Assembly (NCBI RefSeq): GCF_009789075.1
Contig: NZ_WNXQ01000004.1
Span: 186,001-250,000, forward strand
DNA: 64,000 nt
Source: Pseudooceanicola pacificus
GTDB lineage: Bacteria; Pseudomonadota; Alphaproteobacteria; Rhodobacterales; Rhodobacteraceae
Reading direction: 5' to 3'
Below are positions 6,534 through 59,078 of this stretch, in pieces. The position numbers and the translations under genes were made by a program. The notes beneath the pieces are model-generated. The model saw nothing but the letters and a program-made list of their open reading frames with translations, ran no database searches and was not told where the DNA came from. Position 1 is the stretch's first letter. Every line of letters starts with the position of its first letter.

Positions 6534-6552
6534 TGTCCCCCCTGATGGTACG
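6534..6552 (-). promoter_or_regulatory. TGTCCCC-type regulon box I
   Basis: Plus strand TGTCCCC-N5-TGGTACG, read towards the VOC gene as CGTACCA-N5-GGGGACA. A TAGCCT hexamer (complement of 6507-6512) begins 21 bp further on, suggesting the -10 element. Member of the recurring box family described in the findings. Confidence 0.55.
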
Positions 6553-6570
6553 CCGCCTGTGCGGCAGGCC

Positions 6571-7752
6571 TCAGCCGTCGAAAAGGCCCCGCTCGCGCAG
6601 CCACGACAGCTGCGTGTCGATCGCCTCTTTCAGGTGCTCGGGCTGGCCCGCGTAATAGTGCGAACCGCCCTTGATCACGTGGTAGGTCTTGTCGGCGCTG
6701 GCGGCGGCGGCGTGGATGGCCGGCGTGTGATAGGGCGGCACGGCATCGTCGGCGCTGTTCTCGATCGCCAGGAACGGCACCTTGATCCTGGCGGCATTGG
6801 CGACGCCATCGGCATTGCTGTCCGCGACCGACCACTGCGACAGCCAGGACCGCAGCGTCGCGAAGCGGCCAAGCGCCACAGGCCCCGAATTCACCGTCTC
6901 GGGATTGCCGAGGTAGCTGGTCCCGGGCGTGCGGTCGTTGGGATCGAGCGTGGGGTCGATGAACCGCGGGTCGGCAAAGGTGCGGTGCGTCAGGAACGGG
7001 CGCTCGACCTCGCCGGTGCCGCGCGATTTCAGGTCTTCCAGCGTCTCCAGAACGGTGGCCCGGATCCGGTCGACGCGGGCGCGCTGCGCGGTGCGGTAGC
7101 GCTCGATGTAGGCGGCGCTGAAGGGCGGCTTGTGCGGGTTGGCCGGGTCGTAGATGTCGAGCTCCGGGTCGCGCCTGTCGGGGTTCATCTCGTCCAGCAC
7201 CGAGGGGTCGATATTGTCCAGCAGCAGCCGCGCGCGCGAGATATGGGCGGCCTGGAACACCAGCGCATCGGCCGGGATCAGGCCGGCGCCCTTCACGTTC
7301 ACCGGATCGCCGGCGGGGGTATGGGTGATCGAGGGCGCCTCGGCCTCGGCCTGGTACATCAGCGTCAGCGAACCGCCGCCGCTCCACCCGACCAGGACGA
7401 CCTTGCTGTAGCCCAGCACCTCCTTGGCGTGGCGGATGTAGGCGCCGAGGTCCAGCAGCACCTTTTCCATGATCAGGGCGGTGTCGTTCTTGGCATAGCG
7501 GCTTGCGGCGCACAGCACGTGCAGCCCCTGCGCCACCAGGGCACGCGGCACCGGCAAAAGCTGCAGGGTCGAGGCCGGGTGCATCATCACGCAGAGCGTA
7601 TCCGACGGCCGCCCCTCGGGCGTGATCAGGATCCCTTCCAGGTTCACATTGCCCTGGTTTCCGGAAAATCCATAAGTTTCAACGAACTGGCTGTTGTCGG
7701 CATAGTGCAGGTGCAGCCATTGGAAATTGAGCTCATAGGGGGGGCTGGTCAT
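6571..7752 (-). CDS. alpha/beta hydrolase
   Basis: 393 residues from MTSPPYEL. The nucleophile elbow is GWSGGG with Ser124. MMHPAST (57-63) is in the oxyanion strand position, and the C-terminal GGSHYY supplies the catalytic His. A long inserted lid region (about 140-270) carries Asp/Arg-rich helices. It would hydrolyse an ester, lactone or C-C bond. The ATG at 7752 was chosen because the frame stays open further upstream only through the divergent flavoprotein gene. A box precedes it (7808-7827). Next to the LLM monooxygenase, lactone opening after a Baeyer-Villiger step is attractive but unproven. Confidence 0.85.
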   Translation of the reverse strand: MTSPPYELNFQWLHLHYADNSQFVETYGFSGNQGNVNLEGILITPEGRPSDTLCVMMHPASTLQLLPVPRALVAQGLHVLCAASRYAKNDTALIMEKVLLDLGAYIRHAKEVLGYSKVVLVGWSGGGSLTLMYQAEAEAPSITHTPAGDPVNVKGAGLIPADALVFQAAHISRARLLLDNIDPSVLDEMNPDRRDPELDIYDPANPHKPPFSAAYIERYRTAQRARVDRIRATVLETLEDLKSRGTGEVERPFLTHRTFADPRFIDPTLDPNDRTPGTSYLGNPETVNSGPVALGRFATLRSWLSQWSVADSNADGVANAARIKVPFLAIENSADDAVPPYHTPAIHAAAASADKTYHVIKGGSHYYAGQPEHLKEAIDTQLSWLRERGLFDG

Positions 7753-7807
7753 GGTCGCTCTCCGGAAATCATGGTGCGGGAACCTTAGCCGGGCACCCCT
7801 GCGGCGA

Positions 7808-7827
7808 TGTCCCCCGCGCGTGTTACA
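7808..7827. promoter_or_regulatory. TGTCCCC-type regulon box A
   Basis: TGTCCCC-N6-TGTTACA between the divergent hydrolase (start 7752) and flavoprotein (start 7912). Towards the hydrolase, TAAGGT (complement of 7782-7787) starts 20 bp after the box. Confidence 0.6.
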
Positions 7828-7911
7828 GGTGCCGGTCCCTGCGCGCGGGGGCAGCGCGCCCCCCTGCCCCCGGTAGTCTGGGCCGGTTGCAACAGGATCG
7901 GAGAGGGCCCC

Positions 7912-9597
7912 GTGCTGGACACCGTGCAAGACCCCGTGAAAGACTACGACGCCATCGTTATCGGATCGGGCGTGAGCGGCCTGACCGCGGCCATCGTCGC
8001 CGCGCAGGGCGGGCTGGACGTACTGGTGATCGAAAAGGCCAAGGTCTTCGGCGGAACCACGGCCTATTCCGGCGGGGTCGCCTGGATCCCCAACAATCAC
8101 CTGATGCACCGTGCCGGGCTGGAGGACAGCCGCGAGAAGGCCGAGACCTACCTGCGCGCGGTCCTCGGCAACTATTACGACGAGGCCAAGATCGACGCCT
8201 TCCTGGAATACGGCCCGAAGATGCTGGAGCACATGGAGGCGACGACGGAACTGGAGTTCCTGGTCGCCCCCACCCCGGATTACGAGCCCGACAAGCCCTG
8301 TGCCTATCACTCGCGCGGGGTTCTGGTACGCGAATTCGACGGGACCAAGCTGGGCGATCACCTCAAGCTGCTGCGCCAGCCGCTGGATACCCTGACGGTG
8401 CTGGGCGGCATGCAGGTGGCGGGCGCCGACATCACGCCGCTGCGCACCGCATTCCAGAGCGGGGCGAGCTTTGCCTACACGACGAAGACCGTCCTGCGCT
8501 ATGCCCGTCAGAAGGTCACGCACGGGCGGGCGACGCGGCTGGTCAGCGGCAACGCGCTGGCGGGGCGGCTGCTGAAATCGGCGCTGGATGCGGGCGTGAC
8601 GCTCTGGAACGACTGCCCGGCGCTGGAACTGCTGAAGTCCGGCGACCGGGTCACCGGCGTTCGGGTCCGCCGCGCGGGGCGGGAGCTGGCACTGACGGCC
8701 CGGCGCGCGGTCGTGCTGGCCTCGGGCGGGTTCGGCGCGAACGAGGAGCGGCGAAAGGAATTCATGCCGAACCCCGCGCATCACCGTTCGATCCAGCCGG
8801 CCGAGAACGTGGGCGACGGCGCCACGATGGGCGAGTCGGCGGGCGGCACGCTGGTGCGTGACAACCCGATGAACGCGATCTTCATCCCGATCTCGGAACA
8901 TCGGGGGGCGGATGGCAGGATGCAGCGCTTTCCGCACATCATGATCGACCGCTACATGCCCGGCTCCATCGCCGTGAACCAGGCGGGCGAACGCTTCGTG
9001 AACGAGGGGCTGTCGTACCAGCATTACGTCACCACCATGCATGCCGAAGGGATGGACCGGTCTTTCCTGATCGGCGACCGGACCTTCCTGCGCCGCTATG
9101 GCATGGGGCTGGTGCGCCCCTTCCCCTACCGCATCGGCAAGTGGCTGAAGAACGGCTACCTGACCGAGGGGCGCACGATCGAGGACCTGGCCGGCAAGCT
9201 GGGGATCGACCCGGCCCGGCTGAAGGCCACGGTCGAGCGGTTCAACGGCATGGCCCGCAAGGGGGCCGATGACGACTTCGGGCGCGGGGCGGATGCGCAT
9301 TCGCGTTTCCGGGGCGACCAGACGGTCAAGCCGAACCCCAGCCTCGCCCCGCTGGAAACCGGGCCGTTCTATTCCATCACGCTCTACCCCGGCGACCTGA
9401 GCTCCGTCGCGGGCCTGGACACGGATGCGCGGGCGCGTGTGCTGGGGCAGGACGGCAGGCCGATGCAGGGGCTTTATGCCGTCGGCCTCGACATGAACTC
9501 GATGACCAAGGGGATGTACCCGGCCGGCGGGTCCAGCCTCGGGCCGGGGCTGACCTTTGGCTATATCGCCGGTCTGGATATCGCCGCACTGCCCTGA
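7912..9597 (+). CDS. FAD-dependent 3-ketosteroid-Delta1-dehydrogenase-like flavoprotein
   Basis: 561 residues from GTG at 7912, preceded by GGAGAGG at 6-bp spacing. The Rossmann motif is GSGVSG (18-23), followed by EKAKVFGGTTAYSGGVAWIPNN, typical of the fumarate reductase/KstD flavoprotein family. The C-terminus has GMYPAGGSSLGPGLTFGY (about 535-552), where KstD enzymes carry the catalytic Tyr and a Gly of the Y-x-x-x-G motif. The family desaturates 3-ketosteroids or reduces enoates. It stands alone, divergent from the hydrolase across box A. A role in ring desaturation of an alicyclic ketone fits the island, but steroid specificity is not shown. Confidence 0.82.
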   Translation: MLDTVQDPVKDYDAIVIGSGVSGLTAAIVAAQGGLDVLVIEKAKVFGGTTAYSGGVAWIPNNHLMHRAGLEDSREKAETYLRAVLGNYYDEAKIDAFLEYGPKMLEHMEATTELEFLVAPTPDYEPDKPCAYHSRGVLVREFDGTKLGDHLKLLRQPLDTLTVLGGMQVAGADITPLRTAFQSGASFAYTTKTVLRYARQKVTHGRATRLVSGNALAGRLLKSALDAGVTLWNDCPALELLKSGDRVTGVRVRRAGRELALTARRAVVLASGGFGANEERRKEFMPNPAHHRSIQPAENVGDGATMGESAGGTLVRDNPMNAIFIPISEHRGADGRMQRFPHIMIDRYMPGSIAVNQAGERFVNEGLSYQHYVTTMHAEGMDRSFLIGDRTFLRRYGMGLVRPFPYRIGKWLKNGYLTEGRTIEDLAGKLGIDPARLKATVERFNGMARKGADDDFGRGADAHSRFRGDQTVKPNPSLAPLETGPFYSITLYPGDLSSVAGLDTDARARVLGQDGRPMQGLYAVGLDMNSMTKGMYPAGGSSLGPGLTFGYIAGLDIAALP

Positions 9598-9621: not shown

Positions 9622-10548
9622 TCAGCCGCCGGTGACGCTGGTTTCCGGCATCGCGGCCATGCGGTCGCGATGCGCCAGGTAGATGCCGCTGGCCACGATG
9701 CAGCCGCTTCCGACGATCATCCACAGGTCCGGCAGGTCGCCGAACAGCACGAACCCGTACAGCAGGACCCACAGGATCTGGGTGTAGAAGTAGGGGGCCA
9801 GCCCCGAGGCCGTGCCCTGCCGGTAGGCGTGCACGGTCAGGATATGCGCGATGGCCCCCAGCATCCCGACGCTGCCCAGGTTGAACCAGGTCCAGAATCC
9901 CCCCTCGACCCGCAGGAGTTCCGGCGCAAAGGGGGTCAGCACCACGGTCAGCAGAACCGCCGGGATGAACATCAGCGTGTCGGTCCGTTCGGTCCGGGTC
10001 AGCACACGGGTGAGAATGGTGAAGACGCAGTAGGACAGCGTGGCGCAGAGCGCATAGAAATGCCCAGGGTTGATCTGCTGCGACCCGGGGCGGGTGATGA
10101 TCAGCACGCCCAGCATGCCGAGCGCCACCGCGAACCAGCGGCGCGGCTCGACCGTTTCGGCCAGGGCCAGGCGGCCGATCACCATGGTGAAGATCGGAAT
10201 GGTGAAGACGATCGAGACGAATTCGAACAGCTGCAGGTGCATCAGGGCGAGGTAGGCGAAGACGCCTGCGGTCAGGATCATCGCGCTGCGGACGACATGC
10301 AGGCCCCAGCGTCGGGTGCGGTAGCAGCTCGGGTTGCGCCAGGCGCGGAAGATCACCGTCACCGTCACAAGCTGCACCATGTAGCGCGCCCAGAGGATGA
10401 ACGGCACCGACGCCCCGGCCAGGACCAGTGTCTTGGCCATGGCGTCGGTTGTGGAGTTCAGGAAGGTCGCCGCAATCAGGCACAGGATCGCCGGTCCGGG
10501 CACGGCCGGCGAGACCGGGAAGGGCGTCGCTCCGCGTGTGTGGGTCAC
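9622..10548 (-). CDS. EamA/DMT family membrane transporter
   Basis: 308 residues with about ten hydrophobic helices in two EamA repeats, the usual size of drug/metabolite exporters. Start is GTG at 10548; its GTGA overlaps the TGA stop of the upstream SDR, indicating translational coupling, and no separate ribosome site is needed. Polar signatures include a WARYMVQL segment in helix 2 and ITRPGSQQ after the first repeat. It is the last gene of the TRAP-SDR operon. Export of a metabolite or inhibitor from the same pathway is the likely role; substrate unknown. Confidence 0.85.
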   Translation of the reverse strand: MTHTRGATPFPVSPAVPGPAILCLIAATFLNSTTDAMAKTLVLAGASVPFILWARYMVQLVTVTVIFRAWRNPSCYRTRRWGLHVVRSAMILTAGVFAYLALMHLQLFEFVSIVFTIPIFTMVIGRLALAETVEPRRWFAVALGMLGVLIITRPGSQQINPGHFYALCATLSYCVFTILTRVLTRTERTDTLMFIPAVLLTVVLTPFAPELLRVEGGFWTWFNLGSVGMLGAIAHILTVHAYRQGTASGLAPYFYTQILWVLLYGFVLFGDLPDLWMIVGSGCIVASGIYLAHRDRMAAMPETSVTGG

Positions 10549-13322: not shown

Positions 13323-14360
13323 TCAGTTCGAGGGTGCGGATTCGGCGTCGCTCACCCGGCGGCGGAACTCGGCGAGCACCTCCAGCGGGTTTTCCATCCC
13401 CTTCTCCCTGGCGCGGGCGGCCCATTCCTCTTCCAGCGGCCTGGTCGCTTCCTTGAGTTCGGCCAGGAAGTCGTCGCCGATGGTCTTGACCGTCATGCTT
13501 TCCTTGGCTTCCATCTGCTCCATCGCGATGGCACCCGCATTGGCAAAATCGTCGGCCAGTTCCTGGGCCAGTTCGTCACCCGAGATCGCCCAGATCGCCT
13601 TCTGGTCCTCGGGCGAGATGCGGGCCCAGCTGTCCTCGTTCATGATCATGCCAAGCGCGGCGCTGAACAGGCCGCCGGGGATGATCGTGTAGTGCTTGCC
13701 GAGGTCGAGCATGTTCATGTTGATGACCGTCTCGGGCTGGGCCAGGCTGCCGTCGATCACGCCGGTGGACATCATCTCGTAGGCCTCGTTCGAGGACTTG
13801 AGGATCGGCACCGCGCCAACCGCTTCCAGCATCGAGGTCGCATAGGGGCCCGAGCTGCGCAGCTTGACGCCCTTGAGATCCTCCATCGAGTTGATTTCTT
13901 TCCCGACGGTCACGATGTTGCCCGGTGCGTTCGAGATCATGGTCATCACCTTGACCCCGTCGAATTCGCCCAGCGGTTCGATATACTCCTTGTAGATGTC
14001 CCAGAAGATCGGGCCGAAGGTGCTGGGATCGTTGCCGACCCAGGACATCTCGCCCATCTCGGACAACACGAAGCGGCCGGGGGTGTAGCCGGTCACGATG
14101 AACGACACGTCGGCCAGGCCGTCGCGCACGACATCGAACTGCCCCGCTGCGGTACCGACCATCTTGGGCAGGGTCTGGACCTTCACGCGGCCCTCGGTGA
14201 CCTGCTCGATCTGCTCGAACCAGGGATACATCACCTCGGTGTTGACGTGGTGCTGCGCCGGCAGCCACGACGAATAGCGCAGGGTGACGTCTTCGGCATA
14301 GGATTGCCCCGCCGCCAGGCCGAACAGCGCGCCTGCTGCTGCAATTTGCGTGATCTTCAT
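13323..14360 (-). CDS. dctP: TRAP transporter substrate-binding protein (DctP family)
   Basis: 345 residues starting MKITQIAAAG, with a Sec signal peptide cleaved about AxA (QSYAED). Mature segments such as YSSWLPAQHH, FVLSEMGEMSWVG and LRSSGPYATSMLEAVGAVPI match DctP receptors, whose conserved Arg binds a carboxylate. The substrate is therefore probably an organic acid. First gene of the minus operon, with box M about 95 bp upstream and a GGAGGAG ribosome site. Confidence 0.92.
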   Translation of the reverse strand: MKITQIAAAGALFGLAAGQSYAEDVTLRYSSWLPAQHHVNTEVMYPWFEQIEQVTEGRVKVQTLPKMVGTAAGQFDVVRDGLADVSFIVTGYTPGRFVLSEMGEMSWVGNDPSTFGPIFWDIYKEYIEPLGEFDGVKVMTMISNAPGNIVTVGKEINSMEDLKGVKLRSSGPYATSMLEAVGAVPILKSSNEAYEMMSTGVIDGSLAQPETVINMNMLDLGKHYTIIPGGLFSAALGMIMNEDSWARISPEDQKAIWAISGDELAQELADDFANAGAIAMEQMEAKESMTVKTIGDDFLAELKEATRPLEEEWAARAREKGMENPLEVLAEFRRRVSDAESAPSN

Positions 14361-14454: not shown

Positions 14455-14473
14455 TGTCCCTATCTATGTGACA
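14455..14473 (-). promoter_or_regulatory. TGTCCC-type regulon box M
   Basis: TGTCCCT-N5-TGTGACA in the divergent 211-bp gap, on the side of the TRAP receptor gene. I see no clear -10 hexamer at the usual spacing, so this is a weaker member. Confidence 0.4.
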
Positions 14474-14490: not shown

Positions 14491-14510
14491 TGTCCCCGTG
14501 GGCGGGTGCA
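14491..14510 (+). promoter_or_regulatory. TGTCCCC-type regulon box L
   Basis: TGTCCCC-N6-GGGTGCA, with TAGGCT (14532-14537) 21 bp downstream, as at box N. It points to the operon starting at 14572. Confidence 0.5.
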
Positions 14511-14758: not shown

Positions 14759-16060
14759 ATGCGCGCCGGGACGGATCATCGCACCGCAGCGCACCGCCTA
14801 CCTCCGGGGTGGCAGTTCACGCTATCTGCGGTGGTTCTGTTCCTGGCGCTCTTCGGCAGCCACCTCGCCACGCCGCTCTACCCGATCTGGCAGGCGGATT
14901 TCGGGCTGTCGAACACCGACATCGCGATCATCTTCGCGGGCTACCCGGTCGGTGTCACCTTCGGACTGTTGCATGGCGGGCGGCTTGGCGACCAGCTGGG
15001 GCGCAAGCCGCTGACCCGGGCCGGGCTGCTGACCATCCTTGCGGCCAGCCTGTGCTACCTCTGGGCCGGCGGCTTCACCAGCCTGCTGGTGGCGCGCCTG
15101 CTCAACGGTTACGGCATCGGCCTGCTGAGCGGCCCGGCCGTGGCCGCCATCGTCGAACTGCACCCGACCCGCAACCGCGGCAGCGCCTCGCGCATCGGGG
15201 CCATCGCGACGCTCAGCGCCCCGGCCGCGGGCATGCTGACCGCGACGCTGATCGCCCATTACGCCACCGGACCCACCGCCGTGGCCGCGCCCTACATCAT
15301 CTTCGCCGTGCTGCTCACGCTGGGCCTGATTCTGACCGGGGGCTATCGCGAGACCATCCACCCAGAGGAAAAGCAGAGCCTGCGCAGCGCCTCTTTCCGG
15401 CCCCAGGCCCTGCGGGTTCCGCCCGGCATCGCGCTGCCCTTCGCCTATGCGGCCTGCGTCGCGGTCCTGACCTGGGCCAATACCGGGCTTTGGCTGTCGC
15501 TCGGCCCCAGCATCATCCCGGCGCTCATGCAGGGCGCGCATCCGATGACCGGCGGCCTGGCGGTCGTGGCCTTCCTGACCACCGCCGGGATCGTCCAGCT
15601 TGGCGGCGGCTGGCTGGGCTACCTGCGCGCGATCGTGGTCTCGCTGATCCTGGTGATCGCCGCGCTGACAACCGTGCTGGCATCGCTCCACGCAGGCGGC
15701 GTCGCGGGCGTGGCGCTCGGCATGCTGCTTGGCGGGACCTCCCAGGGCCTGGCCTGGATGGGCGTGGTCGAACTGACGAACCGGATCGCCCCGGACTGGA
15801 GCCGCGCGACCGTGCTCTCGGTGCTCTACATCTGCTGCTATTTCGGCTCAGTGGTGCCGGTCCTGCTGACGGGGCTGGCGGCAGATGTCTTCGGCCTGTC
15901 TCGGGCCTTCGGCGGCCTGTGCGTCCTGTCGATGAGTTCGGCCGTTGCGCTGCTGATCTGGACGGCACGCCTGCGCAGGGTCCTGCCGGACCGGCACGAG
16001 ATTTTGCCGGATGTCCCCAAAGGCGTGGACAGGACGGCATCGGCGGCTCCGCCAGACTGA
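14759..16060 (+). CDS. MFS transporter
   Basis: 433 residues with twelve predicted membrane helices. The loop 2-3 signature reads GGRLGDQLGRKPLTRAG, the classic MFS motif. Start ATG at 14759 lies 7 bp after the mini-WrbA stop; longer frames upstream overlap that gene. It is followed by a CoA transferase and an HMG-CoA lyase, so it may import (or export) the acid processed by them. Direction of transport cannot be told from sequence. Confidence 0.88.
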   Translation: MRAGTDHRTAAHRLPPGWQFTLSAVVLFLALFGSHLATPLYPIWQADFGLSNTDIAIIFAGYPVGVTFGLLHGGRLGDQLGRKPLTRAGLLTILAASLCYLWAGGFTSLLVARLLNGYGIGLLSGPAVAAIVELHPTRNRGSASRIGAIATLSAPAAGMLTATLIAHYATGPTAVAAPYIIFAVLLTLGLILTGGYRETIHPEEKQSLRSASFRPQALRVPPGIALPFAYAACVAVLTWANTGLWLSLGPSIIPALMQGAHPMTGGLAVVAFLTTAGIVQLGGGWLGYLRAIVVSLILVIAALTTVLASLHAGGVAGVALGMLLGGTSQGLAWMGVVELTNRIAPDWSRATVLSVLYICCYFGSVVPVLLTGLAADVFGLSRAFGGLCVLSMSSAVALLIWTARLRRVLPDRHEILPDVPKGVDRTASAAPPD

Positions 16061-16096: not shown

Positions 16097-17323
16097 ATGA
16101 CCGACAGGCCCTATTCCGGCCCCCTCAAGGGGCTGCGCATCCTCGAGATCGGCCACTTCATCGCCGCCCCCTTCTGCACCCGTGTCCTCGCCGATCTGGG
16201 CGCCGACGTGATCAAGATCGAACCCCCCGCGGGCGATCCCGTGCGCAAGTGGGGCGCGGCGGTCGAGGGCCGGTCGCTCTGGTGGTCGGTGCATGCCCGC
16301 AACAAGCGGTCCATCGCGCTGAACCTCAAGGCGTCCGGCGCGGTGGATGTGGTCCGCCGGATCGTCCGCGACTGCGACGCGGTGGTCGAGAACTTCCGCC
16401 CCGGGCAACTGGCCCGCATGGGTCTGGGCAATGACGTGCTGCGGGCCGACAACCCCGGTCTGGTCATCGGCCATGTCTCGGGCTTCGGCCAGGACGGCCC
16501 CTACCGCGACCGCGCCGCCTTCGGCGTGGTGGGAGAGGCGATCGGCGGCCTGCGTTACCTGTCGGACCACGCGCCGGGCACCTCCGACCTGCCCCCGGTG
16601 CGGGCGGGGGTCAGCATCGGGGATTCGCTGGCCGGGCTTTATGCCGCGCTCGGCATCGCGGCCTCGCTCTGGCAGCGCGACCGGACCGGGGGCGACGGGC
16701 GCGGGCGCACGCTGGACGTGGCGCTGACGGATTCGGTGCTGAGCATGATGGAGGGGATGCTGCCGGAATACGGAGAACTCGGCCGCATCCGCCAGCCCTC
16801 GGGCTCGCGCATTCCGACCGCCGCGCCGTCCAGCGCCTATCCCTCGCGCGATGGCAAATGGGTGGTGATCGCCGGCAATTCCGAGCCCCTGTTCCAGCGC
16901 CTGGCCGGGCTGATGTACCGGCGCGACCTGATCGACGATCCGCGTTTCGCCGACAACCCCGCGCGGGTCGCGAACGTGGCCGCGCTTGACGCCATCATCG
17001 AGGGCTGGACCCGCCAGCACGACGCGGCTGCGCTGCTGTCCCTGCTGGAACAGGCGGACGTGCCCTCGACCAAGATATACGACGCCGCCGATTGCGCCGC
17101 CGATCCGCAATACGCGCTGCGCGGCATGGTCCGGCAGGTCGAGGACCCGCACCTTGGCCGGACACTGACCCATCCCGGCATCGTGCCCTTGGTCACAGAC
17201 GACCCGGGCGACATCCGCTGGTGCGGCCCGGACATCGGCGAACACACCGACGAGGTGCTGACCGGCGCCGGCTACACCCCCGAGGCCATCGGCGCCCTGC
17301 GCGCGGACCGGGTGATCGCATGA
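16097..17323 (+). CDS. CaiB/BaiF family (type III) CoA-transferase
   Basis: 408 residues. GLRILEIGHFIAAPFCTRVLADLGADVIKIE is cut at the usual family positions (12-42), NKRSIALNLK follows, and the catalytic Asp176 is in SIGDSLAGLYA. Unlike the racemase at 1.3 kb it lacks the His-Asp-Ile-Asn motif (FGVVGEAIGG instead), so it should be a true CoA-transferase that forms an Asp-CoA thioester. Its stop overlaps the ATG of an HMG-CoA lyase gene. A succinyl-CoA:3-hydroxy-3-methylglutarate (or related dicarboxylate) CoA-transferase is the natural reading, by inference. Confidence 0.88.
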   Translation: MTDRPYSGPLKGLRILEIGHFIAAPFCTRVLADLGADVIKIEPPAGDPVRKWGAAVEGRSLWWSVHARNKRSIALNLKASGAVDVVRRIVRDCDAVVENFRPGQLARMGLGNDVLRADNPGLVIGHVSGFGQDGPYRDRAAFGVVGEAIGGLRYLSDHAPGTSDLPPVRAGVSIGDSLAGLYAALGIAASLWQRDRTGGDGRGRTLDVALTDSVLSMMEGMLPEYGELGRIRQPSGSRIPTAAPSSAYPSRDGKWVVIAGNSEPLFQRLAGLMYRRDLIDDPRFADNPARVANVAALDAIIEGWTRQHDAAALLSLLEQADVPSTKIYDAADCAADPQYALRGMVRQVEDPHLGRTLTHPGIVPLVTDDPGDIRWCGPDIGEHTDEVLTGAGYTPEAIGALRADRVIA

Positions 17324-20802: not shown

Positions 20803-21576
20803 TCAGGCCTGGGTCGCTTCCCAGGCCGCGATCATCTCTTCACTGACGTAGACCGAGGCGGTCTGCCCCCCGTCCACCGCCAGCACCTGCCCCGTCACGA
20901 TCCGCGCCTCGTCGCTGGCCAGGAAGGCCACGGCCGAGGCGACGTCGCCGGGGTCGCCGGTCAGTCCCATCGGCATGGTGCCAAGCACCAGCGCCTTGAA
21001 GCGTGCGGTTTCCAGCCGCTCCTCGGTGCCGGGCGTTCGGATCACCCCCGGCGCCACTGCGTTGACCCGCAGCCCGCGCGCGCCGTAGGTCGCGGCCATC
21101 TGGCGGGTCAGGCCGATCACCCCCGCCTTGGCCGCCGTGTAGGGGCCGAAGCCCATGTAGCCCGACAGCCCGATGGAGGAGGCGATGTTGACGATGTTCC
21201 CCCGGCTTTCGAGCAGCATCGGCAGCGCATCGCGCGACAGCCGGAACATCGCCCGCAGGTTCACGTCGAGGTAGAGGTCATAAAGGTCGTCGGTCGTGTC
21301 GTGGACCTGCGGCGCATTCCCGAGGCCTACGTTGTTCACCAGGATATCGAGACCACCAAACGCCGCCCGGCAGGCCTTGAGGATGCGCTGCGGCGCCTCG
21401 TCGGCCGTGGCGTCCTGTACCAGCGTCTCGGCCCCTGCCAGCCTGTCCAGACCGTCGGCATTGCGGTCGACGGCAAGCACGCGGCAGCCCTCGGCCAGCA
21501 GGCGCGTGGCGATGCCGTGGCCCAGCCCCCGCGCCGCACCGGTGACAATGACGGACCGTCCCGCGAGACCCCGCAT
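20803..21576 (-). CDS. SDR family oxidoreductase
   Basis: 257 residues. Start MRGLAGRSV at 21576 forms an ATGA overlap with the stop of the EthD gene, which excludes the longer open frame. TGAARGLG, NNVG, IASSIG and the YTAAK active site are present, ending GGQTASVYVSEEMIAAWEATQA-like with an unusual ~18-residue C-terminal tail after the standard VDGG strand (tail not recognised). Translational coupling with the EthD-domain protein suggests they act on the same intermediate. Confidence 0.88.
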   Translation of the reverse strand: MRGLAGRSVIVTGAARGLGHGIATRLLAEGCRVLAVDRNADGLDRLAGAETLVQDATADEAPQRILKACRAAFGGLDILVNNVGLGNAPQVHDTTDDLYDLYLDVNLRAMFRLSRDALPMLLESRGNIVNIASSIGLSGYMGFGPYTAAKAGVIGLTRQMAATYGARGLRVNAVAPGVIRTPGTEERLETARFKALVLGTMPMGLTGDPGDVASAVAFLASDEARIVTGQVLAVDGGQTASVYVSEEMIAAWEATQA

Positions 21577-21962
21577 CAGATGCGGCCCGCCATCCAGTCG
21601 TCGGCATAGTCCTTGCCGATCTGGACGGTCTGGTTGTCGAACATCAGGATGCGCGTCGCATCCATGTCGAGGAACGCGCGTTCGTCCGCCAGCATCTCGG
21701 TCTGGAAGTAGTCGAGCGCGTGCAACTCCTTGCGGGCGTCGAGGCTGGGAAACCAGACCTCGGAAAACCCGTCGTAGTCCAGCGGGCCGACACCCGGCCA
21801 GCCCTCGCCGGGAACCATACGGTGCTGGACGTAACGCTTGATGTATTTCCCGACGTCCGGAATGCCGGCGATCAGCGGGCCGTGCACGTCGCGCCAGTGG
21901 GCGTGGAACTGGTCCAGCGTCAGCCCCGGCTTCCGCTTGTAGAACCCCAGTGTGATGATCAT
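21576..21962 (-). CDS. EthD domain protein (dimeric alpha-beta barrel)
   Basis: 128 residues: MIITLGFYKRKPGLTLDQF, HWRDVHGPLI (about 23-32) and a second half DYDGFSEVWF. This is the EthD/DABB fold, found beside P450 and monooxygenase genes; family members include a protein required for ETBE degradation and polyketide cyclase-like enzymes. Close paralogue of the gene at 22065-22448 (shared FYKRKPGLTLD, RYVQH, LDYDGFSE, LDMDATR). Box K lies about 65 bp upstream, so a transcript can start here. Confidence 0.85.
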   Translation of the reverse strand: MIITLGFYKRKPGLTLDQFHAHWRDVHGPLIAGIPDVGKYIKRYVQHRMVPGEGWPGVGPLDYDGFSEVWFPSLDARKELHALDYFQTEMLADERAFLDMDATRILMFDNQTVQIGKDYADDWMAGRI

Positions 21963-22026: not shown

Positions 22027-22046
22027 GGCCCCTCGGCGCGGGGACA
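22027..22046 (-). promoter_or_regulatory. TGTCCCC-type regulon box K
   Basis: Minus strand TGTCCCC-N6-AGGGGCC in the 102-bp gap between the two EthD genes. I see no convincing -10 at the usual spacing. Confidence 0.4.
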
Positions 22047-22466: not shown

Positions 22467-23507
22467 TCAGGGCGCGGAGTCGTCGGAGACGACATCGGGA
22501 AGGTCTGTGAAAATCCAGCGCGACAGTTCCAGATTGACCCGGTCCGGCCGCTCCTGCGCCATCCAGTGGCCAGAATGTACGATCCGCTCGGTCAAACGGG
22601 TGCAGCTGTCCCGCATCGGTTCGGCCAGGCGCGAGTCGACCGCCTCGCAGGTGACATCGTAACGCCCGGCCAGGAACAGCACGGGCATGTCCAGCCGACC
22701 GTTATTCACTGCTTCCAGCGTGTAGGCCTTGTTGGCATCGTCGTTGCGGTAGTAGGCATTCGGGCCGAAGAACCCGTTGCGCGACAGTGCCTCGACATAG
22801 ATCGCGCGGTCCAGATCGCTGATCACCGCCGCGTCCCGTTCGACATCCGGCGCCACATCGGCACCACCGAACCAGCCGCCGTTGGCGAAGATGTCCGCAT
22901 GCGGACTGCGCTGGCCCAGCCCTTCGGGTTTGCCTCTGCGGAAGAGCGCCCGGACGGTCCGGTCCGGATCCGCCTCCATCACCGACGTCGCGCGGTCGAA
23001 CTGTTCGACGTAGAAGCGCTGGTAGGCCCACTGGCCGTAGCGATCGCGATCCTCCGGATAGATCGTGCGGTCGACCAGCGGCAGCAGGTGCTCCATCCCG
23101 AATTCCAGCGTCCGGTAGGGTACGCAAAGACCCGCGACGGCGTGGCATCTGTCGGGATGATGGCTGGCGACGGACCACACAGCGGGCGCGCCCCAGTCAT
23201 GTCCCACCCAGATCGCCCGGTCGATGCCCAGTGCATCGGCAAGACCGACGAGGTCCCCGACCTGGTGGCGCAGGCTGTAGGCGCCGAATTCGGCATAGAC
23301 GCCAGAGCGGCCATACCCGCGCATGTCCGGTGCGATCGCCCGGAAACCCATTGCGCCAAAGTGGGTCAGGATGTGACGCCAGCTCCATGACAGTTCCGGC
23401 CAGCCGTGCACGAAGACGATCGGGACGCCATCCTCTGGCCCGCATGCCAGAAAGAAGACCCGGTGATCGCCGATGAGGTGCGTGCCGGGCAGGATTTCTT
23501 GCGACAT
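22467..23507 (-). CDS. alpha/beta hydrolase, epoxide hydrolase-like
   Basis: 346 residues from MSQEILPG. Oxyanion HGWPE (34-38), nucleophile Asp104 in GHDWGAP, and C-terminal His in VHSGHWMAQERPDRVN give the Asp-His pair of soluble epoxide hydrolases and haloalkane dehalogenases. The cap domain contains PYRTLEFGMEHLLP and WFGGADV. The HGWPE and HDWG pattern favours epoxide hydrolase. The likely substrate is an epoxide made by one of the monooxygenases in the window (inference). Box O precedes it. Confidence 0.87.
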   Translation of the reverse strand: MSQEILPGTHLIGDHRVFFLACGPEDGVPIVFVHGWPELSWSWRHILTHFGAMGFRAIAPDMRGYGRSGVYAEFGAYSLRHQVGDLVGLADALGIDRAIWVGHDWGAPAVWSVASHHPDRCHAVAGLCVPYRTLEFGMEHLLPLVDRTIYPEDRDRYGQWAYQRFYVEQFDRATSVMEADPDRTVRALFRRGKPEGLGQRSPHADIFANGGWFGGADVAPDVERDAAVISDLDRAIYVEALSRNGFFGPNAYYRNDDANKAYTLEAVNNGRLDMPVLFLAGRYDVTCEAVDSRLAEPMRDSCTRLTERIVHSGHWMAQERPDRVNLELSRWIFTDLPDVVSDDSAP

Positions 23508-42999: not shown

Positions 43000-43074
43000 A
43001 CGTTCCTCCCCGGGTCAGTCCTGCCCTCGCGCTCTGGGCCTGTCCGACCCTATCTCATGGCCGGCACGGGCAGG

Positions 43075-43094: not shown

Positions 43095-43281
43095 AGTGTC
43101 CGAATGAGCGGCGCGTGACACAAAATGGCTTTGCGGACGTGGCCACTGGCCGGTCGGTCGGCAGGTGCCGCAGCCTGCCCGACGCCGGGAACGGGCGTCG
43201 GGTCGCAGGCGGCTCGTCGGCACCCGTGGTCGGAAGATGGCGCGATGCGGACAGCCGCGGGCCGGCGATACCGTCGCGCCG

Positions 43282-43482
43282 TCAGCCCTGCGAAAGCCGT
43301 GCCAGCCGCGCCGGAAGCTCGGCCATCAGACGGGCGCGGTCGGCATCGGACATGGCGTTCCAGGTGAAGACCTCGCGCACCGTGCGACCGCAGCCCTCGC
43401 AGAACCCGGCCTCGGGGTTCTGCCGGCAGATGCGGCGGCAGGGGGATGGCGGCAGGCCCGCGCGGTCGCGCATCTCGCCCAT
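43282..43482 (-). CDS. DUF1289 small cysteine protein
   Basis: 66 residues. Cysteines at 15, 19, 28 and 31 in SPCRRICRQNPEAGFCEGCG, followed by RTVREVFTWNAMSD, match DUF1289, a probable Fe-S or zinc-binding module. The start ATG overlaps the TGA of the MFS gene (TGATG), a sign of coupling. Function unknown; it is widespread in proteobacteria and may be unrelated to the pathway. Confidence 0.82.
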   Translation of the reverse strand: MGEMRDRAGLPPSPCRRICRQNPEAGFCEGCGRTVREVFTWNAMSDADRARLMAELPARLARLSQG

Positions 43483-44786: not shown

Positions 44787-44805
44787 TGTCCCCAGACGGG
44801 TTACG
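44787..44805. promoter_or_regulatory. TGTCCCC-type regulon box C
   Basis: TGTCCCC-N5-GGTTACG between the divergent MFS (start 44720) and NIPSNAP (start 44862) genes. GATAAC (44827-44832) follows 21 bp after the box on the plus strand. Confidence 0.65.
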
Positions 44806-45581: not shown

Positions 45582-45600
45582 TGTCCCTCATCGGGGGACA
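45582..45600 (+). promoter_or_regulatory. TGTCCC-type regulon box F with promoter
   Basis: TGTCCCT-N5-GGGGACA, a clean dyad, followed after 20 bp by GAATAAA (45621-45627). The first TRAP receptor starts at 45711. The layout is the clearest of the set and is shared base for base in spacing with box H. Confidence 0.75.
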
Positions 45601-45710: not shown

Positions 45711-46847
45711 ATGCTTTCACACACCTACAGGGCCATCGCCCTCGGCGGCGCGCTGCTTGCCGGCGGCGCGGCCCATGCGACCGACCTGCGCTATGCCACC
45801 GGCTTCACCCCCGGTTCGACCGGGGCCGAGAATGCCGTGCGCACCGCCGAATACCTGAACGAGGTCTCGGGCGGCGCCATGACCATGGTGCCCTATGTCC
45901 AGTCGCTGCTGAGCTTTGGCGAGATGTCGGCGGGCGTGCGTGACGGGGTGGCGGATGCGGGCTTTGTGCTCGTGCCCTACAGCCCGGCCGAGTTCCGCAA
46001 CACCGCCATGATCGCCGACCTGACGATGCTGTTCACGCTGATGGGCACCGGCGACCGGGGCGGGCTGGCCTGGACCGGCGCGCTGACGGAATACGTGATG
46101 CTCGCCTGCCCCGCCTGCCAGGCCGAGATGAAGGCGCAGAACCAGGTCTATACCTCGACCTCGGGCACCGAATACGCGCTGATCTGCGATGCCACGATCG
46201 ACGGCAAGGCCGATCTGCAGGGCCTGAAAATCCGCGCCCCCGGCGGCAACTGGAGTCGCTGGGCCGAGGCCTTCGGCGCCGTGCCGGTGCAGCTGAACAT
46301 GGCCGAGACATTCGAGGCGATGAGCCAGGGGATCATCGACTGCACCATCTCGGGCATGACCGAGATCACCGACATGGGCCTGACCGAGGTCACCAAGACG
46401 GTGCTGACCGACGTGCCCGGCGGCGGCTTCGGCGGATCGGCGATGTTCAACATCAATCTCGACGTCTGGTCGGCGATGTCCGAGGACGAACGCAGACATT
46501 TCGTGCGGGCCGCGAACTTCGGCGGCGCGGACCTGTCCTGGGGCTATCACGAGAACAACCTGAAGGGCCGCGCGGCGGCCGAGGCCGCCGGCATCACCGT
46601 CAAGGAGGCCGACAGCGACCTGGCGGACGAAACCGCCGCCTGGGTGCAGCAGGACATCGACGGCATCGCCACCCTCTACGCCGAGAAATACGGGCTTGCG
46701 AACACGTCGGGCTCGATCGAGACCTTTCTCGGCATCTTCGAGAAATGGACCGGCCTGGTCCAGGATGTCGACAGCGCGATGGCCCTGTCGGATCTGATCT
46801 GGGACGAGGTCGGCAGCAAGGTCGACTATTCCACCTACGGCATGTGA
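45711..46847 (+). CDS. TRAP transporter substrate-binding protein, copy 1
   Basis: 378 residues, signal peptide cleaved near AHA-TD. The receptor fold (DctP family) shows in YATGFTPGSTGAEN, GVRDGVADAGFVLVPY, the ligand region KIRAPGGNWSRWAEAFGAVPV and QGIIDCTISGMTE. A Cys pair in ACPACQAE is shared with copy 2. GGGAGG lies before the ATG. It is a clear paralogue of the next gene, and the single permease pair downstream must serve both. Confidence 0.92.
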   Translation: MLSHTYRAIALGGALLAGGAAHATDLRYATGFTPGSTGAENAVRTAEYLNEVSGGAMTMVPYVQSLLSFGEMSAGVRDGVADAGFVLVPYSPAEFRNTAMIADLTMLFTLMGTGDRGGLAWTGALTEYVMLACPACQAEMKAQNQVYTSTSGTEYALICDATIDGKADLQGLKIRAPGGNWSRWAEAFGAVPVQLNMAETFEAMSQGIIDCTISGMTEITDMGLTEVTKTVLTDVPGGGFGGSAMFNINLDVWSAMSEDERRHFVRAANFGGADLSWGYHENNLKGRAAAEAAGITVKEADSDLADETAAWVQQDIDGIATLYAEKYGLANTSGSIETFLGIFEKWTGLVQDVDSAMALSDLIWDEVGSKVDYSTYGM

Positions 46848-46852
46848 TCGCG

Positions 46853-46880
46853 CGGGCGCCCGGAGCCATCCCGGCGCCCG
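46853..46880 (+). repeat. hairpin after TRAP receptor 1
   Basis: CGGGCGCCCGG, loop AGCCAT, CCCGGCGCCCG (one mismatch), 6 bp after the stop. No T run; likely an mRNA 3'-end stabiliser or weak terminator before box G. Confidence 0.45.
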
Positions 46881-46903
46881 ACCTGTGCCTCCCTGCGCAG
46901 CCC

Positions 46904-46923
46904 TGTGCCCCGGCGGGGGGACA
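46904..46923 (+). promoter_or_regulatory. TGTCCC-type regulon box G with promoter
   Basis: TGTGCCC-N6-GGGGACA followed after 20 bp by AATAAT (46944-46949), five of six matches to the -10 consensus. An extra GGGGACA half-site lies at 46994-47000. The second TRAP receptor starts at 47026. Confidence 0.65.
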
Positions 46924-47025
46924 CAAAAATTATCCGCTCATTCAATAATTGATCCGACAGCCGTCGCAAACACAGCGATTGCGCGCGGCGGTCGGGGACA
47001 GACCACACCGGTCAGGGAGGAAAAC

Positions 47026-48171
47026 ATGAACACTATCAAGTTGCGACTGGCAGCGGCGACGGCCCTAGGGCTGGTGCTTGCGGCCGGGTCGACGGCCCAG
47101 GCGGCCGAGCTGCGCTATGCCACGGGATTCGGCCCGAACAGCACCGGGGCCAATGCCTCGAACGCGGCGGCGGACTACCTGTCCCAGATCACCAACGGCG
47201 AGATGACGATGCAGGTCTTCCCGCAGTCGCTGCTGGGTTTTGCCGAAATGAGCAGCGGCGTGCGCGACGGGATCGCGGATGCGGGCTTTGTTCTGTTCCC
47301 CTACTTCCCGGCCGAATATCGCAATTCCAGCCTGATCGCCGACCTGAACATGGTGCTGACGCTGGAACAGACCGGCGACCGGGGCGGGCTGGCCTGGACC
47401 GGCGCGCTGACCGAATACATCGTGATGCATTGCGACGCCTGCCGCGCCGAGATCGCCGAGCAGAACCAGGTCTACACCTCGACTTCGGCCACGGAATACA
47501 ATCTGCTCTGCAAGCCCGAGGTGAACACCGAAGCCGACCTGAAGGGCCTGAAGATCCGCGCCCCGGGCGGCAACTGGAACCGCTGGGTCGAAGCCTTCGG
47601 CGCGGTGCCCGTCTCCCTTCCCTTCGCCGAGATGTACGAGGGCATGAGCCAGGGCATCATCGACTGCTCTATCGCCAGTTTCACCGAACTGGTGGACCAG
47701 GGCCTGATGGACGAGGTCACCTCGATCGTGACCGACGTGCCGGGCGGCGCCTTCGGCGGGTCGGCCATGTTCAACATCAACCGCGACGTCTGGCAGTCGA
47801 TGACGGCGGGCGAACGCGAAAGCTACATGAAGGCCGCCAACTATGGCGGGGCGATCACCTCGTGGGAGTACCGCGCCAACAACGCGGCCGCACGCGAGAA
47901 GGCCATCGCCGCCGGGATCGACGTGCACGAGGCCGACCAGGCGCTGCATGACAAGACGATGGATTGGATCCGCAACGACATCGCCACGGTGACCCAGCTC
48001 TATTCCGAAAAATACGGCGTCGAGAACACCCAGGAATCCGCCGACGCCTTCCTGGAGATCTTCGGCAAGTGGGCTGGCCTGGTCGACGGCATCGACAGCG
48101 GCGAGGCGCTGGCCGACCTGATCTGGCAGGAGGTCGGCTCGAAGGTCGACTTCGAGACCTACGGCATGTGA
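47026..48171 (+). CDS. TRAP transporter substrate-binding protein, copy 2
   Basis: 381 residues, signal peptide to AQA-AE, ribosome site GGGAGG. Same family as copy 1 with matching RYATGFGPNSTGAN, GVRDGIADAGFVLFPY, KIRAPGGNWNRWVEAFGAVPV and QGIIDCSIASFTE. The Cys pair reads HCDACRAE. Having its own box suggests higher or separate expression. A small GC hairpin follows the stop before the DctQ gene. Confidence 0.92.
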   Translation: MNTIKLRLAAATALGLVLAAGSTAQAAELRYATGFGPNSTGANASNAAADYLSQITNGEMTMQVFPQSLLGFAEMSSGVRDGIADAGFVLFPYFPAEYRNSSLIADLNMVLTLEQTGDRGGLAWTGALTEYIVMHCDACRAEIAEQNQVYTSTSATEYNLLCKPEVNTEADLKGLKIRAPGGNWNRWVEAFGAVPVSLPFAEMYEGMSQGIIDCSIASFTELVDQGLMDEVTSIVTDVPGGAFGGSAMFNINRDVWQSMTAGERESYMKAANYGGAITSWEYRANNAAAREKAIAAGIDVHEADQALHDKTMDWIRNDIATVTQLYSEKYGVENTQESADAFLEIFGKWAGLVDGIDSGEALADLIWQEVGSKVDFETYGM

Positions 48172-54375: not shown

Positions 54376-54378
54376 CGG

Positions 54379-56968: not shown

Positions 56969-56973
56969 CTTGC

Positions 56974-58143
56974 TCACTCCCTTTCCAGGATCAGCGTGGC
57001 CGAGCCGTGGCGCGAGCCGAGGTAGCCCCCCGTCCCGTGCGCCAACGCAAGGTCGCAACCGGGCACCTGCACTGCCGGATGCGCCTCGCCGCGCAACTGG
57101 CGGACGGCCTCGATCACCTTGGTCATGCCGCCGCGGTTGCCCGGGTGGTTGCTGCACAGCCCCCCGCCGTCGGTGTTGAACGGCAGCTTGCCCTGCCCCG
57201 AGATCAGGTTGCCGTCCTGCACAAAGCGGCCCCCCTGCCCCTTGTCGCAGAAGCCGAGATCCTCCAGCGTCATCAGCACGGTGATGGTGAAACTGTCGTA
57301 GATCGAGACGTACTTGATGTCCGCCGGCGTCACCCCCGCCTGGCCAAAGGCGATCGGGCCCGAACGCACGGCGCCGGAATAGGTCAGGTCGGTCTTGCCG
57401 CCGTTGAGGTGCTTTACCGCCTCTCCCGATCCGCGCACCTTGACCAGCGGACGGTTCAGCGACTTCGCCACTTCGGGCGAGACCACGACCAGCGCCCCGC
57501 CGCCGTCGCTGATCACGCAGCAATCGAGCTTGTGCAGCGGTTCCGAGATCATGGGGGAATTCACCACCTCCTCGACCGTGACCACCTGCGGCAGCATGGC
57601 GTTGGGATTGTGCTGGGCGTGGTGCGAGGCCGCGACCTTGATCCAGGCGAGCTGTTCCGAGGTCGTGCCGAATTCGTGCATGTGGCGGGCCGCGCACATG
57701 CCGTAGAGGTTCGGGATGACATGGCCAAAGGGCAGCTCGTAGGGCACGTCGGGGCAGTTCGGGTCATCGTAGAACGCCCCCTCGCCCTTGTTCGGCTTGC
57801 CGGTGCGCGGCTTGCCCGCCAGCGTGATCACGGCGACCGAACATTTCCCCTCGGCGATCGCCTGCGCGACATGGCCGACGGCCAGCACGTAGGACGACCC
57901 GCCGGTGTCGGTGTTGTCGACATAGGTCGGATGGATCCCGAGGTATTCGGTGATGCTGAGCGGGCCCAGCCCCGGCGCGTCGCTGGCGCAGAAGAAGCCG
58001 TCGACATCCTGCAGCGTCAGGCCCGCGTCGTTCAGCGCGCCCTTCACGTTCTCGGCGTGCAGCTGGATCAGCGTCTTGTCCACGGCCTTGCGCGTCGGGT
58101 GTTCCCACGCGCCGGCGATATAGGCCTTGCCTGTCGTACTCAC
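56974..58143 (-). CDS. thiolase-superfamily protein lacking the nucleophilic Cys (Ltp2-like aldolase candidate)
   Basis: 389 residues of SCP2-thiolase type. Where thiolases carry the nucleophile in a C-x-S-G loop, residues 76-84 read DNTDTGGSS with no Cys. The HDAF-type motif near 282 is IYDSFTITVL, so His is Tyr282. NHPGNRGG (332-339) and AHGTGG (368-373) keep the C-terminal catalytic His positions. These changes match steroid side-chain retro-aldolases (Ltp2 group) rather than acetyl-transfer. It is encoded next to its probable DUF35 partner. Exact alignment is needed to confirm. Confidence 0.83.
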   Translation of the reverse strand: MSTTGKAYIAGAWEHPTRKAVDKTLIQLHAENVKGALNDAGLTLQDVDGFFCASDAPGLGPLSITEYLGIHPTYVDNTDTGGSSYVLAVGHVAQAIAEGKCSVAVITLAGKPRTGKPNKGEGAFYDDPNCPDVPYELPFGHVIPNLYGMCAARHMHEFGTTSEQLAWIKVAASHHAQHNPNAMLPQVVTVEEVVNSPMISEPLHKLDCCVISDGGGALVVVSPEVAKSLNRPLVKVRGSGEAVKHLNGGKTDLTYSGAVRSGPIAFGQAGVTPADIKYVSIYDSFTITVLMTLEDLGFCDKGQGGRFVQDGNLISGQGKLPFNTDGGGLCSNHPGNRGGMTKVIEAVRQLRGEAHPAVQVPGCDLALAHGTGGYLGSRHGSATLILERE

Positions 58144-58173
58144 GTGTCGGTCTCCTTGATCATGTCGCCCGGA

Positions 58174-58980
58174 TCATTTCGCCTGCGCCGCCGCCTTGCG
58201 GAAATCGGGCGCGCGTTTCTCGGTGAAGGCGCGGACGCCCTCGGCGAACTCCGGCCCCAGGCTGGCGGCAAGCTGCAACTCGTCCTCGAGGTTCAGCTGA
58301 TCCTCAAAGCTGTTGCGGTCGGCGTCCCAGTAGAGCTTGCGGATCCGCGACAGCCCCCCGACCGGGCCGTCGGCCAGCGTCTGCGCGATCTTCATCGTCT
58401 CGGGCATCAGCTGATCCGCGTCGAAGACCCGGTTCACCATGCCCCAGTCGAGCGCCGTTTCTGCCGGCAGCTTCTCGGCCAGCATCGACAGTTCGCGCGC
58501 CCGCGCCATGCCGACGAGGCGCGGCAGGAGCCAGCTTGACCCGCTGTCGGGCACCAGCCCGATCCGGGCGAAGGCCTGCAGGAAATAGGCCTGACGCGAG
58601 GCGGTGATGATGTCGCCCATCAGCGCGATGCTCATCCCCGCGCCGACCGCAGGCCCGTTCACCGCCGTCACAAGCGGCACGGGGCAGTCCCGCAGGGTGC
58701 GCAGCATGGGGTGGTAATATTTCTGCAGCACCGCCTCGGCCCGGTTCGGGGTGGCGGCGTTGCCATCATCGCCGCCCGACAGATCCGCGCCCGAGGAAAA
58801 CGCACGCCCCGTTCCGGTCAGCACGATGCAGCGCGCGCCCTGCCTGCCGGTCAGGTCGAGCACCCCCGCGCCGATGGCGGTAACGGTTGCGGGGTTCAGC
58901 GCGTTCAGCACATCGGGCCGGTTGATCCTGAGGATTCCGACCGCGCCGTCCATTTCCGCGGTGACAACTTCCGGTTTCAT
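58174..58980 (-). CDS. enoyl-CoA hydratase/isomerase family protein
   Basis: 268 residues from MKPEVV. Oxyanion pieces AFSSGADLSGG (about 57-67) and GPAVGAGMS (about 104-112); the second-Glu position reads VPDSGSSWLLPRLVG, with Asp in place of Glu, as in PaaG/isomerase-like members. First gene of the minus beta-oxidation operon, divergent from nitronate monooxygenase across box H. Hydratase versus isomerase activity is open. Confidence 0.88.
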   Translation of the reverse strand: MKPEVVTAEMDGAVGILRINRPDVLNALNPATVTAIGAGVLDLTGRQGARCIVLTGTGRAFSSGADLSGGDDGNAATPNRAEAVLQKYYHPMLRTLRDCPVPLVTAVNGPAVGAGMSIALMGDIITASRQAYFLQAFARIGLVPDSGSSWLLPRLVGMARARELSMLAEKLPAETALDWGMVNRVFDADQLMPETMKIAQTLADGPVGGLSRIRKLYWDADRNSFEDQLNLEDELQLAASLGPEFAEGVRAFTEKRAPDFRKAAAQAK

Positions 58981-59058
58981 GCCCGCACCTTTCCTGTCGC
59001 GCCACCGGCGAAACGGCCGTGGCTCGATTGGACAAGACCCCGCCGGGCTGCATCCGGT

Positions 59059-59078
59059 CGCCCCCTGACGAGGGGACA
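59059..59078. promoter_or_regulatory. TGTCCCC-type regulon box H with promoter
   Basis: CGCCCCC-N6-GGGGACA followed after exactly 20 bp by GAATTA (59099-59104) within an AT-rich stretch; nitronate monooxygenase starts at 59166. The same gap must serve the divergent crotonase-thiolase operon (start 58980). Confidence 0.6.

Follow-up and report, generated by a model that had tools for sequence, protein, structure and literature searches.

A 64,000-nucleotide stretch of Pseudooceanicola pacificus DNA (contig NZ_WNXQ01000004.1, positions 186,001 to 250,000; hereafter the window) contains a palindrome of 19–20 bp, TGTCCC(C/T)-N5/6-(G/A)GGGACA (the box), ahead of many operons. The box is real and was confirmed in the window; moreover, and as a new observation, a -10-like hexamer lies at a fixed 21–22 bases past the box edge in six genomes. 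The reading that we favour, at a probability of about 0.7, is that the box would be the operator of a single activator switching on a catabolic island, this activator being the LuxR-type protein encoded within the island at 28567–29391. A dimer of this protein would bind the box at about -53 to -34, its GAF-like N-terminal domain would sense some pathway compound, and the protein, acting as a class II activator, would recruit RNA polymerase. A single palindrome may be enough for two divergent promoters, some divergent pairs having one box per gene, and the MarR-family regulator encoded at 26813–27463 (MarR1) would provide a second, separate control.

Genes in the window were called from codon usage, with the addition of the open reading frame (ORF) 23640–24050, and were named by Pfam; by these calls, 5,988 of the 64,000 bases are noncoding. 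The GC content of the window is 67.6%. In an unbiased scan, 4096 hexamer half-sites with 17 gaps gave 69,632 inverted repeats, which were ranked by noncoding bias at up to 2 mismatches. The first two places went to GTCCCC-N6-GGGGAC (11 noncoding and 3 coding matches) and TGTCCC-N8-GGGACA (10 and 3), which represent one 20-bp frame shifted by one base; GTCCCC-N7-GGGGAC (6 and 1) ranked next. Two box spacings, of 20 bp and 19 bp, are present in the window. With a gap of 7 or 8 and at most 2 mismatches, 13 noncoding boxes were counted, whereas 300 dinucleotide shuffles averaged 0.64 and never exceeded 4, which bears out the preference for promoter gaps that a first-pass annotation of the window had claimed. 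That annotation had listed about 15 copies, and when the letters were checked one by one, a box was found at all 15 places. Its coordinate 27462 is better given as 27463, the last base of marR, and two copies had been missed (7834–7853 and 16012–16031). The box was also found ahead of the cytochrome P450 (P450), transporter, beta-oxidation and NIPSNAP/EthD/DUF3237 genes that the annotation had linked. A weight matrix trained on 75 sites from five other genomes was applied to the window, and its top 19 matches included all 15 of the listed sites. The top 16 consisted of 15 intergenic boxes and 16012; ranks 17 and 18 (5619 and 48985) were intragenic, and 32582 took rank 19. Because the training sites were chosen by mismatch to the window-derived consensus, the matrix is not wholly independent; the unbiased scans of relatives are.

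Conservation of the box was examined in the genomes that carry the island. Seohaeicola zhoushanensis, a member of another genus, carries the block 485–60125 of the window in collinear order, with proteins 64–93% identical. Window genes 9622–10503, 23640–24050 and 47074–48171 lack a Seohaeicola counterpart, and Seohaeicola has one additional hydrolase gene. In matching gaps, the box is conserved at 14 of the 15 sites first listed, and also at 7834 and 16012; the exception is 46904, whose adjoining gene has no counterpart. Seven loci came out of a scan by P450 alignment: those of Seohaeicola and five Rhizobiales, and a 24% match, which was left out of the comparison. The five Rhizobiales contain rearranged versions of the island, in which 20 of 21 boxes are intergenic (20-bp type, at most 2 mismatches, by our gene calls, which are poor for one locus, with 66% noncoding). 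TGTCCC-N8-GGGACA came first in the unbiased scan of Seohaeicola, with 15 matches in noncoding and 2 in coding DNA (log10 p -13.6), and likewise when four Rhizobiales were pooled, with 58 and 8 (log10 p -45.8). The six compared genomes are related, and the islands of Mesorhizobium ephedrae and P. soli are very close.

Promoter geometry was assessed with 112 boxes from six genomes (86 of 20 bp and 26 of 19 bp), giving 160 box-to-gene directions that were aligned from the box edge. Three boxes called intragenic (window 16012, M. zhangyense 36204 and ECS31B3 38799) were added by hand, and 43075 and 44787, with 3 mismatches, were left out. From +22 to +27, counted from the box edge, AT content was 0.48–0.61, compared with ~0.3 before. 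When the -10 element was scored in 157 promoters (3 of the 160 were dropped) against 200 mononucleotide shuffles, the TATAAT-like score was maximal at +22 (z 12.1). TA was present at +21 or +22 in 56 of the 157 promoters (7/21 in the window and 12/26, 10/30, 11/31, 10/26 and 6/23 in the others). The peak was the same for 20- and 19-bp boxes, and so the distance appears to be set from the near half-site. No TTGACA-like element was seen in the +1 to +20 logo of the six genomes, leaving no evident -35. Transcription starts about seven bases past a -10 element; given the -10 spacing, the box would thus lie at about -53 to -34, which, for starts at that distance, would be the position of a class II activator. 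With starts inferred from sequence, the arrangement is that of a class II lux box, namely a palindrome of ~20 bp over the -35 region with a -10 element present. The fixed -10 distance suggests activation. Among 51 divergent boxes, 19 had a -10 match (3/6 or better, at +21 to +23) on both sides, 28 on one side and 4 on neither, by a threshold that has no control. In the window, boxes 7808 and 7834 lie between one divergent gene pair and boxes 14455 and 14491 between another, and each of these four boxes faces one gene with its -10. The boxes of the window are listed below, with hexamers placed by their distance from the box edge.

6534–6552, minus strand: 19-bp box ahead of VOC/luciferase-like/flavin-reductase genes (6389 downwards); matrix rank 7; TAGCCT at +22; Seohaeicola counterpart.
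7808–7827, minus strand: 20-bp box ahead of hydrolase gene 6571–7752; matrix rank 5; AAGGTT at +22.
7834–7853, plus strand: second box, absent from the earlier list, ahead of the flavin adenine dinucleotide (FAD) dehydrogenase gene 7912–9597; matrix rank 11; TAGTCT at +21; Seohaeicola counterpart.
14455–14473, minus strand: 19-bp box ahead of DctP gene 13323–14360; matrix rank 3; TCAAAT at +22.
14491–14510, plus strand: 20-bp box facing the major facilitator superfamily (MFS) gene 14594/14831–16060; matrix rank 10; TAGGCT at +22.
16012–16031, plus strand: 20-bp box, absent from the earlier list, within the 3′ end of the MFS gene and just ahead of coenzyme A (CoA)-transferase gene 16097–17323; matrix rank 6; CAGACT at +22; Seohaeicola counterpart intergenic.
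22027–22046, minus strand: 20-bp box ahead of EthD gene 21576–21962 and the following genes; matrix rank 12.
23600–23619, minus strand: 20-bp box ahead of hydrolase gene 22467–23507; matrix rank 4; GAGGTT at +22.
26803–26822, no strand: 20-bp box between the FAD hydroxylase gene (24907–26703, minus) and marR; matrix rank 9; a box lies between marR and the divergent gene in 6/6 genomes.
27463–27481, plus strand: 19-bp box ahead of the short-chain dehydrogenase/reductase (SDR) gene 27562–28371; matrix rank 14; TAGGCT at +21.
32582–32601, no strand: box between P450 (minus) and NIPSNAP (plus) genes; matrix rank 19; TACCGC at +22 on the P450 side; Seohaeicola counterpart.
35510–35529, no strand: 20-bp box between SDR (minus) and DUF3237 (plus) genes; matrix rank 2; TAGCGT at +22 on the SDR side; boxes between both orthologs in five other genomes.
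43075–43094, minus strand: 20-bp box ahead of branched-chain-type ATP-binding cassette transporter genes; matrix rank 8; Seohaeicola counterpart.
44787–44805, no strand: 19-bp box between MFS (minus) and NIPSNAP (plus) genes; matrix rank 16; CAGACT at +22 on the MFS side.
45582–45600, plus strand: 19-bp box ahead of DctP gene 45711–46847; matrix rank 1; exact TGTCCC-N7-GGGACA.
46904–46923, plus strand: 20-bp box ahead of DctP gene 47074–48171; matrix rank 15.
59059–59078, no strand: 20-bp box, the rightmost, between enoyl-CoA hydratase (minus) and NMO (plus) genes; matrix rank 13.

The regulon proposed in the first-pass annotation is supported as a box shared at the level of one island, and not as one spread over the genome. 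Neither of the outcomes that the annotation had named as refuting it, a lack of intergenic enrichment over random sequence or a lack of conservation in orthologous promoters, was obtained. In the genome of P. pacificus, 353 sites were found at up to 2 mismatches, compared with 502 for a reversed control, and 14 compared with 14 at up to 1 mismatch; a genome-wide regulon was therefore rejected. Of the 25 sites in this genome within 1 mismatch of GTCCCCN6GGGGAC, six belong to the window, whose share of the assembly (3.89 Mb, 66.9% complete) is 1.6%. The 40 kb left of the window contain three boxes, all intergenic and within 33 kb of it, and the 40 kb on the right contain no intergenic box and three pattern matches, all inside genes. 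Given that the left-flank boxes are intergenic and the right-flank matches lie only inside genes, the box appears to be the operator of one island; from first to last box the span is ~92 kb, ending at 59078. In five other genomes, at up to 1 mismatch, the pattern was in excess of its control (11/4, 17/4, 13/3, 13/3 and 12/7), and in four of them (Seohaeicola left out) 7/11, 6/17, 6/13 and 5/13 of the places lie in or beside the island. The boxes may form one regulon. The GC content of the window and the lack of an overall excess in its own genome could be taken to mean that GC-rich spacers produced these palindromes by chance; the probability of this is negligible, as the dinucleotide shuffles, the unbiased scans in three sets, the conservation and the fixed -10 distance all contradict chance.

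Only two recognised regulator genes are common to all six regions.

28567–29391, minus strand: LuxR-type regulator, favoured activator; GerE helix-turn-helix (HTH; PF00196, E 4.7e-11), GAF-like N-terminal domain by model; present in 7/7 carrier genomes.
26813–27463, plus strand: MarR-family regulator MarR1, rival binder; MarR domain (Pfam); present in 7/7 carrier genomes.

The protein encoded at 28567–29391 has the C-terminal GerE HTH of LuxR/GerE-type transcription factors. Of 394 genomes from the Rhizobiales family, six had a match to it at E ≤ 1e-25: the five carriers and one more in which the match was partial. With domain borders set by hand, the HTH of the six orthologs was 80–92% identical to that of the window protein, compared with 27–54% elsewhere. 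A structural model (mean predicted local distance difference test score 74, predicted template modelling score 0.53) contains an alpha/beta N-terminal domain, which we read as GAF-like, and a GerE domain. In a fold search, the top PDB matches were receptors of acyl-homoserine lactones (AHLs; template modelling score ~0.37), followed by the VqsR ligand domain. Pfam detected neither an autoinducer nor a GAF domain in the protein, and a scan of five proteins for the autoinducer-binding domain pfam03472 found none at E values up to 10, HMMER filters dropping most weak matches. No Pfam match to a luxI-type synthase was present among the scanned window proteins, no search aimed at luxI having been made. 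From its model, the protein may work like a LuxR-type receptor-activator; it is not established as an AHL receptor. To the left of its block (locus position 15341), Seohaeicola encodes a second LuxR-type protein, 37% identical, close to a box.

The box might also be bound by a regulator encoded outside the island, or by both regulators together on one site. The incompleteness of the P. pacificus assembly means that other regulators may be missing from view, and two binders could account for the two spacings of 20 and 19 bp. We consider this highly improbable, since the box accompanies the island into several orders with the LuxR-type protein and MarR1 as the only recognised regulators in all six regions, and both spacings have the same -10 distance. 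Further regulator genes were rejected as binders. MarR2 (63301–63816) lies beyond the block shared with Seohaeicola and is preceded by a different palindrome, TetR- and GntR-like genes left of the window (by sequence reading) had matches only in Seohaeicola, and an AsnC gene (Pfam) is present in five regions and absent from the window's own. Two Rhizobiales gene families first taken for regulators appear, by sequence reading, to be WrbA-like and SnoaL-like.

MarR1, whose true start is probably near 26888, carries the winged HTH expected of a MarR-family repressor operon. At E ≤ 1e-20, a screen of 394 genomes of its host's family gave two with a match, its own and that of Seohaeicola zhoushanensis. 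No close ortholog was found in 21 genomes of the same genus (best E 1.1e-17, 35% identity); in six orthologs identity, again within domain borders set by hand, was 57–78% compared with 29–52% elsewhere. MarR1 might bind the box and repress the island, with release by a pathway compound, in which case the -10 spacing would reflect a repressor placed over the -35 region. Apart from the presence of orthologs in all seven carriers, this is favoured by a box variant (TGTCCC(C/T)-N6 type, one GTTACA half) between marR and the divergent gene in 6/6 genomes, by a further box after marR in 6/6 genomes, and by the better TATAAT match on the marR side of box 26803 in the window. Nevertheless, at the box by marR, TA was found at +22 on the side of the catabolic gene in 6/6 genomes and on the marR side in 0/6, and there is no evident -35 for a repressor to cover. 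For these reasons, and given the plasmid loci described below, we regard repression by MarR1 through the box as unlikely.

Distant relatives on plasmids separate the LuxR-type protein from MarR1 best. Loci were examined for 9 of 38 records with a LuxR match and 5 of 13 with a MarR match, together with 59 permuted control half-sites; HTH alignments were made for 7 of the 9 LuxR loci. The plasmid clusters of Sphingobium sp. MI1205 and TKS encode LuxR relatives 31% and 29% identical to the window protein and contain four intergenic boxes each, a number reached by 0 of the 59 controls. TA was present at +22 towards the gene in 8/8 of these boxes. No MarR1 match was found on the Sphingobium plasmids that carry these boxes (plasmids were searched, chromosomes were not). 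The five loci with MarR relatives, matches that are partial and possibly of other function, contained 0, 0, 0, 1 and 0 intergenic boxes, compared with a control mean of ~4.1 in total. Both Sphingobium plasmids, pMI1 and pTK2, carry a common P450/CoA-transferase/leuCD-like cluster in which the box and the LuxR relative occur.

Several results weigh against the LuxR-type protein as the binder. The two Sphingobium clusters are orthologous and so amount to nearly one case. Without them, the remaining seven LuxR loci contain 9 intergenic boxes compared with a control mean of ~5.7; Variovorax paradoxus has 3, reached by 7 of the 59 controls, and the other six have 0, 0, 2, 1, 2 and 1, counts that between 6 and 59 of the 59 also attain. 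At the locus of Burkholderia arboris, where the HTH is similar (62% over 58 residues), there is no box. In the window itself, no box lies ahead of the luxR gene, and box 26803 has a TATAAT match of 4/6 at +21 on the marR side compared with 2/6 on the other, the two being equal in Seohaeicola. The hexamers of the box are N8 or N7 apart, whereas the half-sites of lux boxes are closer together. Finally, MarR1 co-occurs with the island as well as the LuxR-type protein does. We still favour the LuxR-type protein because of the activator geometry, its strongly conserved HTH, and the recurrence of the box with its -10 spacing in Sphingobium clusters without a MarR match on those plasmids. Beyond this, we would give even odds to an undescribed subfamily of GAF-like LuxR-type activators (Rhodobacterales-like, Rhizobiales, Sphingomonadales and perhaps Betaproteobacteria) that would share one wide-spaced operator code and travel, as a module of activator and operator, with rare catabolic islands.

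Lux boxes are palindromes near -42 with the outer bases CTGT...ACAG, and in this they resemble the box; the site of RpaR is CTGTCC-N4-GGACAG, and the halves of the box are about six bases further apart. AHL receptors such as RhlR, TraR and RpaR provide the nearest solved folds, yet the window protein has no autoinducer-domain match. Our literature search found no bacterial regulon with this site, which does not prove its absence from print; one match containing GGGGAC was discarded, its letters being from cloning primers. Among known regulators, as far as the available portions of their accounts go, CrbR of Pseudomonas (ACTU motif) is a LuxR-family activator; the imperfect inverted repeat on which it depends spans -52 to -36 and directly precedes an RpoD promoter (PMC5715377). 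It is alike in family and in the position of the repeat; it differs as a two-component response regulator of acetate-use genes, and the matches to its motif printed there have other letters. RamA of Corynebacterium glutamicum is LuxR-type, with A/T/C-GGGG-N and A/T/C-CCCC-N as its commonest motifs (PMC4847777), and such HTHs can thus read CCCC/GGGG halves. In contrast to the favoured activator, RamA is described in the excerpts as a global acetate/carbon regulator that is also a repressor, and they state no fixed palindrome; the NCBIfam RamA model matched only the HTH of the window protein, far below its cut-off. DfdR of Rhodococcus, by its description a LuxR-type regulator with a GAF-like domain, as here, senses aromatic compounds (as cited in PMC6099782). 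TesR/TeiR and the LuxR regulator of the pdc cluster are likened to the window protein by description, as LuxR-type regulators inside catabolic clusters, in their case for steroid degradation (PMC6678751, PMC12239570); the excerpts name no operator for them. The site of the window is not given in the available portions of any of these accounts.

The island encodes a CYP199-like P450, a ketosteroid-dehydrogenase-like flavoprotein, a ring hydroxylase resembling 2,4-dichlorophenol/2-hydroxybiphenyl hydroxylases and a pimeloyl-CoA-dehydrogenase-like subunit. Among ten proteins scanned against NCBIfam equivalogs, none of the matches listed reached its cut-off. These enzyme likenesses suggest an aromatic or hydroaromatic polycyclic substrate. 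The box supplies this large and rare catabolic island, which also holds several small barrel proteins of unassigned role, with a defined operator, together with a promoter geometry and a candidate for the activator, and shows which genes belong together. Plasmid clusters elsewhere that share this control can be traced by it, and it opens a direct way to reporter tests and to a search for the ligand. If activator and operator do travel as a module, membership of unknown pathways could be read from promoters alone.

Several other features were observed. Within the gap 42985–43481, Seohaeicola has an alpha/beta hydrolase-like gene and a box, both absent from the window. Two consecutive DctP genes, with one box each, occupy 45711–48171, where Seohaeicola has a single DctP gene. 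The ORF 23640–24050, in a 0.6-kb gap beside box 23600, is weak (136 amino acids, no Pfam match) and may not be a gene. The M. ephedrae version of the island holds a HigB-like toxin gene with an HTH partner (3482–4120 of that locus). Just ahead of MarR2, at 63839–63858, lies another 20-base palindrome, TGTCAACCTTTTCGTTGACA, which may be the MarR2 operator.

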